DNA of 39,551 nucleotides from Candidatus Cryptoclostridium obscurum (GTDB lineage Bacteria; Bacillota; Dehalobacteriia; UBA7702), in assembly GCA_904420535.1 (NCBI GenBank), contig CAJFVQ010000099.1, positions 1-39,551 of the forward strand, written 5' to 3'. A program made the position numbers and the translations under genes. The notes under the pieces are model-generated. The model was not told the DNA's origin and ran no database searches. It worked only from the letters and a program-made list of their open reading frames with translations. Positions 757 to 4,095 of the stretch are shown here, piece after piece. The number at the start of each line of letters is the position of its first letter. Positions within the stretch are counted from its first letter, which is position 1.

Positions 757-1513
757 AGTCCGTGCTGCCCGGGCCAAAGGTCGTCCTACAGGACTGAAAT
801 ATATTGAACATATCCTCACGGATTTTGTGGAACTTCACGGCGATCGGCGTTTTCGTGACGACGCGGCCATCGTAGGCGGTATCGGCATGTTGGGCGATAT
901 GGCCGTGACCGCTATTGCCATGGAAAAGGGGTCCGATACTAAGGACAAAGTACGTCGCAATTTTGGTGCACCCAATCCTGAAGGGTATCGGAAATCATTG
1001 CGTTTGATGAAACAGGCGGAAAAATTCCATCGTCCCATTCTTTGTTTTATCGATACTGCCGGCGCTTTTTGTGGTGTCGGTGCGGAAGAACGCGGCCAAG
1101 CCCAGGCCATTGCAGAAAATTTAATGGAAATGATGACTCTTCGCACTCCGATCATTTCTATTCTAATTGGGGAAGGAGGCAGCGGCGGTGCTTTGGCCCT
1201 TGCCGTAGCTGATGAAGTCTGGATGATGGAAAATGCCATTTATTCAGTAATTTCTCCGGAAGGCTGTGCCAGCATTTTGTGGAAGGATTCCTCCAAAGTG
1301 AAGGAAGCTGCAGAATGCTTGAAACTCACCGCCGATGATATGCTTCGCTTTGATGTTGTGGAACGGCTGATCCCTGAAAAGGATCGTGAGTTCGAAGCAA
1401 TCTACACGGAGTTGCAGAATCTTTTATTGGAAAAACTAAAAGAAAAGTCCATCCTTCCCATAGAGGAACTTTTGAATCAGAGATATCAGCGTTTCCGTAA
1501 ATTTGGCATGTAA
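737..1513 (+). CDS. accA: Acetyl-CoA carboxylase carboxyltransferase subunit alpha
   Basis: This is the alpha subunit partner of AccD in the cytoplasmic carboxyltransferase complex that makes malonyl-CoA. The start at 737 is preceded by a purine-rich site (AGGAAGGGGGAA, 719-730) and begins MTEPLDKVRAARAKGRPTG. An in-frame ATG at 692 lies deep inside accD with no such site. At 258 residues it matches the short Gram-positive form, which lacks the N-terminal helical extension of the proteobacterial form (about 320). Family segments seen are HGDRRFRDDAAIVGGIG, FIDTAGAFCGVGAEERGQ, IGEGGSGGALALAVAD and SPEGCASILWKD. It is the last gene of its operon in this window. No convincing terminator follows; the downstream gap is AT-rich and carries the next promoter. 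Confidence 0.97.
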   Translation: MTEPLDKVRAARAKGRPTGLKYIEHILTDFVELHGDRRFRDDAAIVGGIGMLGDMAVTAIAMEKGSDTKDKVRRNFGAPNPEGYRKSLRLMKQAEKFHRPILCFIDTAGAFCGVGAEERGQAQAIAENLMEMMTLRTPIISILIGEGGSGGALALAVADEVWMMENAIYSVISPEGCASILWKDSSKVKEAAECLKLTADDMLRFDVVERLIPEKDREFEAIYTELQNLLLEKLKEKSILPIEELLNQRYQRFRKFGM

Positions 1514-1580
1514 TGTCCAGGACGAAAAATGTTGTCAATTTATATAATTTTTTAAAGCTTTTTAAAGTTTAAATTTCCCA

Positions 1581-1609
1581 TTGACAATGGAGAAGAACTT
1601 TTTTATACT
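1581..1609 (+). promoter_or_regulatory. Consensus sigma-A promoter for the DUF3842/CooT operon
   Basis: TTGACA at 1581-1586 and TATACT at 1604-1609 are separated by 17 bases, an almost perfect housekeeping promoter. A/T-rich tracts just upstream (about 1540-1575) could act as an UP element. Transcription would begin near 1616 and leave a leader of about 130 nucleotides before the first gene. Confidence 0.85.
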
Positions 1610-1615
1610 ATACAC

Positions 1616-1748
1616 AGAAGCATTATGGAGATGCTCTATGGCCAGAAGGCTCTAAAATACAAAATATGAAAAAATATAGTTGGAAACTGTTGCTAAGAAG
1701 GCACACAATTTTTGTGTGTCTTTTTTATTTGTAAAAATGGGGGAACCT
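1616..1748 (+). ncRNA. Structured 5' leader, candidate attenuator or riboswitch
   Basis: Between the predicted transcription start and the ATG at 1749 lies a leader of about 130 nucleotides that ends in an intrinsic terminator (1698-1726). The heptamer AGAAGGC occurs twice, near 1644-1650 and 1696-1702. The second copy enters the 5' arm of the terminator stem, so alternative pairing is conceivable. I could not match the upstream part to any riboswitch class I know. That it is a regulatory leader is inference; the terminator itself is read directly. Confidence 0.5.
1698..1726 (+). terminator. Intrinsic terminator inside the 5' leader of the DUF3842 gene
   Basis: A stem of nine pairs (GGCACACAA at 1700-1708 with TTGTGTGTC at 1712-1720, one G-T wobble) has a three-base loop and is followed by TTTTTT (1721-1726). 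It lies downstream of the promoter at 1581 and upstream of the first start codon, so it would abort the transcript unless relieved. Confidence 0.75.
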
Positions 1749-2162
1749 ATGAAAATAGCGATCATTGACGGTCAAGGCGGCGGCATCGGTAAACACATTA
1801 CCATGAAGCTGCGAAGCTTCTTGGGAGAAGAATACGAGATTATTGGCTTGGGAACCAATGCCGTGGCGACGATGGCCATGCTGAAGGCCGGCGCCAATGA
1901 AGTGGCCACGGGAGAAAGCGCCATCGTTTACATGGCATCAAAGGTGGATGTGATCGTAGGTTCTGTTTCCATCCTTTCTGCCAACAGTATGTGCGGCGAA
2001 ATGACGCCCCGAATGGTAGAAGCCATTGGCAGCTCCGATGCCAAAAAAATTCTGTTGCCGGTGAATCGAAATCAGATTGAGATCGTCGGCGTCCTGCGGG
2101 AGCCGGTACCTCACCAAATCGACCGTCTGGTAGAAGCCATTAAGAATCATGAAAATTTGTGA
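1749..2162 (+). CDS. DUF3842-type protein of unknown function
   Basis: A 137-residue cytoplasmic protein that I recognise as the DUF3842 family; no function is established. It opens with MKIAIIDGQGGGIGKHIT, a beta strand followed by a glycine-rich turn like a Rossmann-type nucleotide site. It continues with LGTNAVATMAMLKAGA, SAIVYMASKVDVIVGS and LLPVNRNQIEIVGV. The whole looks like one alpha/beta domain without membrane segments or signal peptide. The start at 1749 has GGGG (about 1739-1743) just upstream; longer in-frame starts would run through the leader terminator. It shares a transcript with the CooT-like gene 33 bases downstream, which hints at a metal or cofactor role. That role is inference from neighbourhood only. 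Confidence 0.8.
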   Translation: MKIAIIDGQGGGIGKHITMKLRSFLGEEYEIIGLGTNAVATMAMLKAGANEVATGESAIVYMASKVDVIVGSVSILSANSMCGEMTPRMVEAIGSSDAKKILLPVNRNQIEIVGVLREPVPHQIDRLVEAIKNHENL

Positions 2163-2195
2163 TAAGGTGAAAGAAACAGAAAGGAGATTCCTGCT

Positions 2196-2390
2196 ATGTG
2201 TGAAGCCAATGTGTATTTAAGAGAGAAAGATGCGGATGAATATCGACTTTTGATGGAAAGTGTCGATAAAGTGATTCCCGCTGGTGATGAAATTATTTTG
2301 GAAAGCATTTTCGGTCAGAGAAAAATTGTAAAAGCTTATATTAAAGAAATGACTTTGGTGGATCATAAGATCATGCTGGATCATATTTAA
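2196..2390 (+). CDS. CooT-like small nickel-binding protein
   Basis: A 64-residue protein starting Met-Cys-Glu-Ala, with an AAGGAGA ribosome binding site ahead. Size, the Cys at position 2 and the segments LESIFGQRKIVKAYIKEM and VDHKIMLDHI fit the CooT family. In Rhodospirillum rubrum CooT is a dimeric nickel-binding protein of the carbon monoxide dehydrogenase maturation set, with Cys2 as ligand. No CO dehydrogenase genes are nearby here, and many anaerobes carry stand-alone CooT homologues, so the metal partner is unknown. It follows the DUF3842 gene closely in the same operon. Confidence 0.8.
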   Translation: MCEANVYLREKDADEYRLLMESVDKVIPAGDEIILESIFGQRKIVKAYIKEMTLVDHKIMLDHI

Positions 2391-2474
2391 TCCTTCTAGA
2401 ATCGTTTTTTCGGGATGCCTGTCCTTTGTCCATGAAACTGGTGGGAGATCGTTTTGACGTTCTTTTGACATAAC

Positions 2475-2503
2475 TTGACTTTTTTCCATGGGAAAGATAT
2501 ACT
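2475..2503 (+). promoter_or_regulatory. Sigma-A promoter for pgi
   Basis: TTGACT at 2475-2480 and TATACT at 2498-2503 are separated by 17 bases. A second TTGACA at 2465-2470 lies ten bases upstream, but its spacing to the same -10 is too long (27 bases). The start site would be near 2510. A seven-pair hairpin (ATACTGT 2542-2548 with ACAGTAT 2554-2560) lies in the leader just before a weak AAGG ribosome binding site. Confidence 0.75.
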
Positions 2504-2586
2504 TATTTTGAATCATTACGGAAAAAAGCATTTCAGACGATATACTGTTGATGACAGTATGATATAAGGTCAATGAAAAGATTGTG

Positions 2587-4035
2587 ATGATTACCGAAAT
2601 GCTTTTGGGAACGGAATCAGTCATCATATTAAAGACGGAAAGGACAGGTCTTTCTTTGGAAAAAAAATTGATGGTTTCTCTTTGCGAAAAAAATGCTAGG
2701 TCTTTTGTGACGGAGGAAGCTTTTGTGATCATGAAACAGCGGGCCATTGCCGGACAAGATCTGCTTTGGTCAGGAAAAGGACCGGGAGCGGAATATTTGG
2801 GATGGCTGGATCTGCCTGAGAGTTTTGCCGAGAGTGACCTTGAGAAAATAGAAACTACTGCTGAGGAGATTAGAAACACTTCCGACGTTTTTGTGGTGAT
2901 CGGTATTGGCGGTTCTTATCTTGGTTCTTATGCGGCGATTTCTTTTTTGCGCCATCGTTTTTATAATAACGTACCCCGTTCTCTTCGTCAGGGGCCGGAA
3001 ATCTACTTCGCGGGGAATCATTTTAGCGGTCGGTATTTAAAGGAGCTGATAGAGGTCATCGGCGAACGCGATGTCTCTGTGAATGTGATCTCCAAATCCG
3101 GTTCTACCATGGAAACTGCGGTGGCCTTTCGTTTTTTCCGCCAGTATTTAGAGGATCGTTACGGCCGCGAAGAAGCTGTCCGCCGCATTTTTGTCACTAC
3201 TGACGCAACCCAAAGTCCTTTGAAAGATATCGCCGAGGAATCGGGATACTGTTTATTGGGCATTCCTTCCAATGTTGGCGGACGATTTTCTGTTCTTACA
3301 GCGGTGGGGCTTTTGCCCATTGCCGTCAGTGGCGGAGACATTCGCACGATGCTGGATGGCGCCTCTGCAATGCGCGCACATCTGCTTCGTGAGAAAGACT
3401 GTAATGACGCCTTGATCTATGCGATTTATCGGAACCTCTTTTTTGAGCAGGGAAAAACTGTGGAACTTATGGCCTGCTGCGATCCTTGTCTTCATCATCT
3501 GGCGGAATGGTGGAAACAGCTTTTTGGAGAAAGCGAAGGCAAGAACCATTTGGGGCTTTTCCCCGCTGCCGTTGATTTAACAACGGATCTTCATTCCCTC
3601 GGCCAGTTTATTCAGGACGGATCCAGGATCATGTTTGAAACTGTGGTCCGTATTACTGAGCACCGCGCCGATGAAGCAGTTGTGGTGACGGAATCTTTAG
3701 ATGATTTTGACGGCCTCAATGATCTCAGCGGTATGACCATGGACGAGATGAATGCCAAAGCCTTTTATGGTTCTACAATGGCTCATACCGATGGCGGTGT
3801 TCCGAATTTGTTGCTCTCTGTGCCAAATAAAAATGCCGATTCCCTTGGACAGTTGTTTTATTTTTATGAATACGCCTGTGGAATCAGCGGTTATGTGTTG
3901 GGAGTGAACCCCTTTGATCAGCCGGGCGTAGAGGCTTATAAACGTAATATGTACGCACTTTTGGGCCGTAAAGGATATGAAGAGGAGCGCCGTCGCCTTT
4001 TGGAGCGTTTGCAAGAAACTGATAGATTACAATGA
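2587..4035 (+). CDS. pgi: Glucose-6-phosphate isomerase
   Basis: Interconverts glucose 6-phosphate and fructose 6-phosphate in glycolysis and gluconeogenesis. The SIS-type phosphosugar core is clear, with EYLGWLDLP, FVVIGIGGSYLGSYAA, ISKSGSTMETAVAFRFF, GGRFSVLTAVGLLP, NHLGLFPAAVDLTTDLHSLG and, near the C-terminus, FDQPGVEAYKRNMYALLG. It belongs to the short Gram-positive type (about 450 residues). The start is uncertain. ATG 2587 (or GTG 2584) gives about 482 residues, but the AAGG upstream is spaced too far. ATG 2671 would give 454 residues, almost the Bacillus subtilis length, but has no clear ribosome binding site. It is monocistronic, with its own promoter and a strong terminator. Confidence 0.96.
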   Translation: MITEMLLGTESVIILKTERTGLSLEKKLMVSLCEKNARSFVTEEAFVIMKQRAIAGQDLLWSGKGPGAEYLGWLDLPESFAESDLEKIETTAEEIRNTSDVFVVIGIGGSYLGSYAAISFLRHRFYNNVPRSLRQGPEIYFAGNHFSGRYLKELIEVIGERDVSVNVISKSGSTMETAVAFRFFRQYLEDRYGREEAVRRIFVTTDATQSPLKDIAEESGYCLLGIPSNVGGRFSVLTAVGLLPIAVSGGDIRTMLDGASAMRAHLLREKDCNDALIYAIYRNLFFEQGKTVELMACCDPCLHHLAEWWKQLFGESEGKNHLGLFPAAVDLTTDLHSLGQFIQDGSRIMFETVVRITEHRADEAVVVTESLDDFDGLNDLSGMTMDEMNAKAFYGSTMAHTDGGVPNLLLSVPNKNADSLGQLFYFYEYACGISGYVLGVNPFDQPGVEAYKRNMYALLGRKGYEEERRRLLERLQETDRLQ

Positions 4036-4040
4036 ACCAT

Positions 4041-4074
4041 AAAAATGCCAACCGTAAACACGGTTGGCATTTTT
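4041..4074. terminator. Bidirectional intrinsic terminator between pgi and the convergent minus-strand gene
   Basis: A 15-pair stem (AAAAATGCCAACCGT 4041-4055 with its complement 4060-4074) has the loop AAAC. It has T runs on either strand, so it can stop both pgi and the minus-strand gene ending at 4096. Confidence 0.93.
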
Positions 4075-4095
4075 GGCGTTTTTTATAATATGCGT

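Follow-up and report, generated by a model that had tools for sequence, protein, structure and literature searches.

The window, the whole 39,551-nucleotide stretch that was analysed, carries near its start a DUF3842 gene followed by a CooT gene, and both identities are confirmed by profile matches. Ahead of this pair lie a promoter, a leader of ∼80 nt counted from an inferred start near 1616, and an intrinsic terminator. The earlier note had proposed this arrangement from the letters alone; it is real and, as described below, conserved. The features are as follows.

1581-1609, plus strand: sigma-70-type promoter, TTGACA-17-TATACT, 11/12 consensus letters
1619-1635, plus strand: hairpin P1, AGCAUU-AUGGA-GAUGCU, ANGNA pentaloop (at least five pairs with ANGNA in 7/8 leaders of the order)
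1640-1651, plus strand: hairpin P1b, GGCC-AGAA-GGCU, NGNA tetraloop, read from the sequence, holding the first AGAAGGC
1676-1690, plus strand: hairpin P3, AUAGUU-GGA-AACUGU, from folds
1691-1703, plus strand: hairpin P2 (antiterminator), UGCU-AAGAA-GGCA, ANGNA pentaloop, from folding a leader truncated ahead of the 3′ arm and from relatives, holding the second AGAAGGC
1695-1726, plus strand: intrinsic terminator, stem and T tract, kept in 4/4 genomes of the order
1749-2162, plus strand: DUF3842 gene, first controlled gene (PF12953, E 2e-52)
2196-2390, plus strand: CooT gene, nickel-binding protein family, candidate sensor (PF10133, E 4e-25; PDB 6fan CooT, E 1.3e-14)

Promoter, leader and terminator

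The promoter boxes, TTGACA at 1581-1586 and TATACT at 1604-1609 with 17 nt between them, form the best of eight promoter-like sites within 1200-3000, where shuffled sequences gave a mean of 3.3 (sd 1.7). Promoters occupy a similar position in the other leaders of the order. The terminator stem, within 1695-1725, has 14 pairs including G-U, with TTTTTT at 1721-1726. A terminator alone is unsurprising, with one found versus 1.5 expected in shuffles. The fold of the 113-nt leader beats 200/200 shuffles (z -2.92), and the 85 nt without the terminator fold no better than shuffles (z -0.70). The upstream part therefore cannot be judged by energy, and conservation decides.

The heptamer AGAAGGC occurs twice in the leader, at 1644-1650 and 1696-1702, in agreement with the earlier description of a duplicated motif whose second copy enters the terminator arm. 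Each copy is the loop and 3′ strand of a small hairpin, P1b or P2. The second copy overlaps the terminator arm, and P2 and the terminator are mutually exclusive. In the window, P2 has four pairs only and the rarer loop form AAGAA, and the terminator is far stronger. Other leaders also have a hairpin at the place of P3, the loop of which is not conserved.

Two further signals lie downstream in the window. Within 2475-2610, a promoter-like TTGACT-17-TATACT precedes the glucose-6-phosphate isomerase gene, with an inverted repeat behind it (AAGCATTTC near 2526, GAAATGCTT near 2598). A strong terminator-like repeat, GCCAACCGTAAACACGGTTGGC, is found 3′ of the isomerase gene at 4038-4084.

Conservation and covariation

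The order was sampled through four genomes, namely the window's own (G000), G001, G002 and G003, the last being 91% complete. Each harbors two DUF3842 genes, and promoter, leader and terminator stand directly ahead of exactly one of them (L003, which is the window, L009, L024 and L025). The earlier note had named a lack of conservation among relatives as grounds against its reading; the leader is common to all four genomes. The paralogue split, one DUF3842-CooT copy with a leader and one without, likewise recurs in 4/4 genomes, and in the window's genome the leaderless pair (L021 1501-3353, contig C71) is followed by a 413-aa gene. A methyltransferase, a MATE-like transporter and a second Opp/Nik-type ABC transporter lie behind DUF3842-CooT on the same strand in G001 (L062 4804-6983) and G002 (L063 2330-9708), all of which may constitute one long operon.

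Searches with a pattern of the common core and with covariance model R1 revealed three more leaders, each before a YntA-like gene, in G001, G002 and G003. The gene behind the G003 and G001 leaders encodes a family-5 solute-binding lipoprotein; the G002 leader, the seventh copy, is outside the R1 training set and matches at E 2e-6. Against the PDB, the G001 protein matches the nickel-binding YpYntA (4ofl, E 8e-74), with an unnamed solute-binding protein (3ry3) scoring equal and ranked first. The YntA orthologue of the window's genome lies on contig C96 (55% identity), and the leader predicted for it from orthology was then found as the eighth copy, having escaped R1. It consists of P1 (ACGCAC-AUGAA-GUGCGU), P2 (GGAGC-AUGGA-GGUCC, one G-G mismatch) and a terminator. 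The eight leaders together place the element on DUF3842-CooT and on a YntA/NikA-type nickel ABC transporter in 4/4 genomes. As read from translations, the transporter genes of G000, G001 and G002 form a cluster of solute-binding protein, permeases and ATPases. Weak R1 matches in G000 (C27), G002 (C20) and G003 (C193), at E 0.18-0.76, and in G024 (C53, 0.0015) were rejected as plain terminators or coding sequence.

With four or more pairs, a P1 carrying the ANGNA loop is present in 8/8 leaders (0.24 expected from shuffles); with five or more, in 7/8 (0.09 expected). In 60 shuffled sets, no loop pattern out of 640 exceeded 2/8 leaders. P2 combines an ANGNA loop with at least four unbroken pairs in seven of the eight leaders, the eighth having one mismatch. 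The distance from the P1 loop to the P2 loop ranges from 19 to 136 nt.

Across the phylum, probably Bacillota and sampled through 398 genomes, a close YntA relative occurs in 20, at 21 loci besides that of the window's genome. The element was recognized by eye at eight of these loci (L071, L072, L073, L076, L077, L082, L084 and L090, with L072 and L077 incomplete). At the other 13 it was absent by eye or the upstream sequence was too short or unreadable; they include L089, a partial match, and L075, where 259 nt upstream held no visible element. In this distant form the terminator takes the other side of P2, with ACC-ANGNA pairing with the 3′ arm, such that the register is changed between the forms and the exclusion of P2 and terminator is kept. 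Model R2, built on eight sequences of the distant form, matches 123/398 genomes at E<=0.02, several of them with about ten copies. At this threshold it matches none of the remaining 275, the window's own included, and does not find the window leader; the two forms are therefore joined by anatomy and gene context and not by one model. P1 was not seen in several distant copies. A candidate ahead of CooT in G376 (L104) and G414 (L103) was left out because it overlaps an apparent coding end.

Covariation was assessed in alignment A4, in which 73 loci gave 90 matches, 86 of them distinct; the set takes in the training copies and also a few matches that are the opposite strand of another. The eight outer pairs of the terminator are 98.7% formed over 86 copies, with 64 double changes versus a shuffled mean of 18.6; slid controls were 30-50% paired, and it is this stem to which the alignment itself was fitted. 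The pairs of R2 do not include the P2 stem. P2 pair 4 is formed in 74/85 copies (A-T 39, G-C 28, T-A 4), versus a mean of 50.6 and a maximum of 61 over 2000 shuffles. Pair 5 is formed in 56/85 (mean 39.9, max 52); pair 6, at 47/85, shows nothing beyond shuffles (max 54). Both mutually exclusive helices thus covary in relatives, which supports the proposal of premature termination through alternative folding.

All five letters of the P2 loop double as letters of the terminator stem. The A at position 1, the G at position 3 and the A at position 5 are each constant in 86/86 copies, and the letters at 2 and 4 differ between copies in step with their terminator partners. As terminator pairing alone would permit changes at 1, 3 and 5, it is probably the letters of the loop that are recognized once P2 has formed. 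R2 scores loop letters and would miss strongly deviating copies, a real bias that leaves the variation at 2 and 4 unexplained. An inner (A)NGNA hairpin between P2 and the 3′ arm is present in 45/86 copies (shuffles mean 4.6, max 10), most commonly with AGAA, the P1b loop of the window; the strongest inner hairpins have other loops in 40/82.

Genes behind the element

The genes behind the distant form were surveyed at 65 matches outside the training set, comprising 25 loci (L125, L126 and L128-L150) and 40 matches from a hand-made list of 42 at E<=1e-6, the list being a selection that passed over other places at that threshold. L138 and L160 lie on the same short contig of G271, and some first-gene labels were assigned by blastp to labelled matches or by eye. 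The first gene is DUF3842 in 8/65 matches, a Nik/Ynt-type ABC component in seven, ZnuA-like in seven, an ECF S component in six, a methyltransferase in six, CbiM in five, a periplasmic binding protein of family 2 (PF01497) in four, one of them by similarity, CobN or Mg-chelatase in three, LarC in two and DUF4198 in one. FmdE is the first or second gene in four matches, and a TsaA-like gene followed by a CooC/MinD-like P-loop protein is found in another four. In the remaining eight (L135, L138, L157, L163, L173, L175, L176 and L183) a metal link was not seen or the gene was unreadable.

The metal connection that the earlier note drew from the CooT-like product is strengthened by this gene set, the same leader preceding YntA/NikA-type transporters and its distant form preceding LarC, CbiM and CooC-like genes. 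Nickel is marked most firmly by LarC (PF01969, E 1e-157), together with the 'nickel ABC transporter permease' model, which matches at E 3e-73, under its curated cut-off. The ECF S component, ZnuA-like, FecCD/periplasmic binding and CobN targets could point to cobalt or to several metals. CooT follows DUF3842 in four of the eight DUF3842 matches (L125, L145, L146 and L167) and also in L022, L094 and L096. In L134, L153, L160 and L174 it was not seen, and some of these loci stop nearby.

Several loci carry additional features. A 40-kb stretch of G110 (L191, L192; probably Thermacetogenium phaeum) contains several to many elements, among genes for several solute-binding proteins, sets of Nik/Ynt/Opp transporters, methyltransferases and radical-SAM-like proteins, and could be a metallophore island. 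A cobalamin riboswitch (RF00174, 134 bits) at L126 66-249 on the minus strand lies ∼1.3 kb from the TsaA/CooC-like element, and the leaders of YntA-like genes in L081 and L083 resemble cobalamin riboswitches by eye.

A probable conditional terminator, its candidate reader and known RNA systems

The element is a real, conserved and apparently undescribed family of probable conditional-terminator RNAs on nickel genes. At gathering cut-offs no Rfam family matches anywhere in the window, a permissive scan (E<=10) of 1560-1800, of the kind the earlier note had called for, gave chance-level matches far below the cut-offs, and none of the 4227 Rfam models, NiCo and TwoAYGGAY (RF01731) included, matches the element in related loci. 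The earlier placement outside known riboswitch classes is consistent with these scans. Among open PMC papers, searches returned no description of a nickel-linked antitermination or terminator-hairpin regulon, no paper on DUF3842 and, among the papers listed, nothing relevant for nickel, riboswitch, LarC and CooT.

The leader is likely to control a nickel, possibly nickel/cobalt, regulon as a conditional terminator of this family, with P2 held by a trans-acting reader of the loops. What the sequences show is conservation, exclusive helices that covary in distant copies, invariant loop positions and a nickel-related gene set. By default the terminator would form and transcription would stop ahead of DUF3842-CooT; the window terminator is much stronger than the four-pair P2, so the default state should be off and P2 should need help. 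Under nickel scarcity, the (A)NGNA loops of P1, with P1b, and of P2 would be read by a factor acting in trans, which would keep P2 closed. P2 would then occupy the 5′ arm of the terminator, no terminator would form, and the genes would be transcribed. Read-through would thus be the regulated state, and low nickel the likely signal because most targets serve uptake and insertion. The reader is probably a protein and not the metal, and the presence of two small hairpins whose loops are alike but whose distance varies points to a dimer.

CooT appears to be the leading candidate for the reader. It is present in 16/16 element-bearing genomes checked versus 1/8 others and is often within the controlled operon. 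Fisher tests, which were set up after seeing the data and ignore relatedness, gave p 2e-5 at the level of genomes (16/0 vs 1/7), p 0.003 at the level of YntA leaders (12/0 vs 4/6, G246 excluded) and p 0.011 with the order counted once (G246 excluded). Passages of PMC6006190 describe CooT as a nickel accessory protein of CODH that binds one Ni per dimer with a Kd of 9 nM and term its function unclear. The acidity of CooT (pI 4.7-5.6 in 23 copies) counts against a role as reader. A fold search gave no match to a known RNA-hairpin binder; among the matches listed, CooT structures (6fan, 5n76 and 6y8v) came first and CsrA was absent. The next neighbors were F1 epsilon subunits at Z ∼5 and RimM, through its PRC-barrel domain, at Z 3.5-4.7; at these levels the similarity may reflect no more than a common arrangement.

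We tentatively propose, as a possibility that we would not yet favor, that CooT is the nickel sensor of the regulon: apo dimers would clamp tandem ANGNA hairpins and cause read-through, nickel-bound CooT would release them, and DUF3842-CooT would be autoregulated. If so, CooT would act as a nickel-responsive RNA-binding antiterminator; we know of no example of this kind, and searches of open PMC papers gave none. PF10133/COG1532 may once have been called a 'predicted RNA-binding protein', a label that open PMC papers did not confirm, COG1532 there being CooT or a metallochaperone. Among these papers, those listed for CooT with RNA-binding all concerned the crystallography program Coot, and those listed for CooT with nickel were mixed and largely on Coot.

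For acetogens and other anaerobes, the supply of nickel is limiting for CO dehydrogenase/acetyl-CoA synthase, hydrogenases and lactate racemase. The element, which has no counterpart in Rfam and seems to be common to many lineages, sits over genes of nickel uptake and insertion; it offers a testable role for DUF3842 and CooT and a regulon map for finding the RNA-reading factor.

The principal alternative is a metalloriboswitch, in which Ni2+, Co2+ or a metal complex would bind the leader directly and select P2 or the terminator with no protein. The nickel/cobalt uptake and insertion genes, the overlap of the switch with the terminator and the fact that no regulator gene has been identified are all compatible with it. 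Against it stand the 19 to 136 nt between the loops and the distant copies in which P1 was not seen; invariance is confined to the loops of small hairpins, with no conserved junction. The NiCo riboswitch, a transition-metal riboswitch with a role in efflux, shares the metal theme; the present element differs in its separate small hairpins, in genes mainly for uptake and insertion rather than efflux, and in having no match at the element to NiCo or any other Rfam riboswitch. A metalloriboswitch is accordingly unlikely, and of the control suggested in the earlier note, premature termination is supported, whereas a riboswitch in the strict sense finds no support in a conserved part made up of two or three small (A)NGNA hairpins with very variable spacing and without a compact ligand pocket.

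Control by an ANTAR-family response regulator that binds tandem hairpins, as EutV or NasR, is very unlikely, even with one ANTAR gene each in G000, G001 and G002. As read from translations, these three genes have glutamine synthetase-like genes next to them or nearby and are not linked to the element, and none was found in the leader-bearing G003 (91% complete). ANTAR-target regulons concern nitrogen, ethanolamine and amide, in contrast with the nickel regulon here. The anatomy is similar: the dual hairpins of the eutP, nasF and amiE leaders are small and tandem, with invariant loop residues, a second hairpin exclusive with an intrinsic terminator and a default off state. The ANTAR hairpins described in parts of PMC3369931 have hexanucleotide loops with A1 and G4, whereas the present element has A1-G3-A5 pentaloops or NGNA tetraloops, with G at position 4 in 31/86 copies, P1 loops such as AUGUA and AUGAA, and far more variable spacing.

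Leader-peptide attenuation, in which a ribosome on a short ORF sets the fold (in the window, ATG at 1625, MEMLYGQKALKYKI-stop), is still less probable: short ORFs are readable in several leaders, but the ATG is a product of the loop motif and is not conserved (ACG-TAG in the G003 YntA leader, AGG-TAG in the G003 DUF3842 leader, ATG-TAA in G001), and no common codon run was seen.

The least probable reader is CsrA/RsmE binding A(N)GGA loops. According to sections of PMC4333381, CsrA/RsmE is dimeric and binds paired GGA-loop hairpins, and the TwoAYGGAY RNA of Clostridia (loop consensus taken from the family name) resembles the present element in its paired hairpins with AYGGA-like loops. Many P2 loops are indeed AYGGA, but GGA is found in only 31/86 P2 loops, 55/86 and most P1 loops doing without it, and a CsrA gene was found in 1/4 genomes of the order (a 14-genome control search gave three matches). 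The present element further differs in its tie to a terminator before metal genes. With small (A)NGNA hairpins at very variable spacing, the element looks more like the site of a dimeric RNA-binding protein, as ANTAR or CsrA targets are, than like a metal aptamer.
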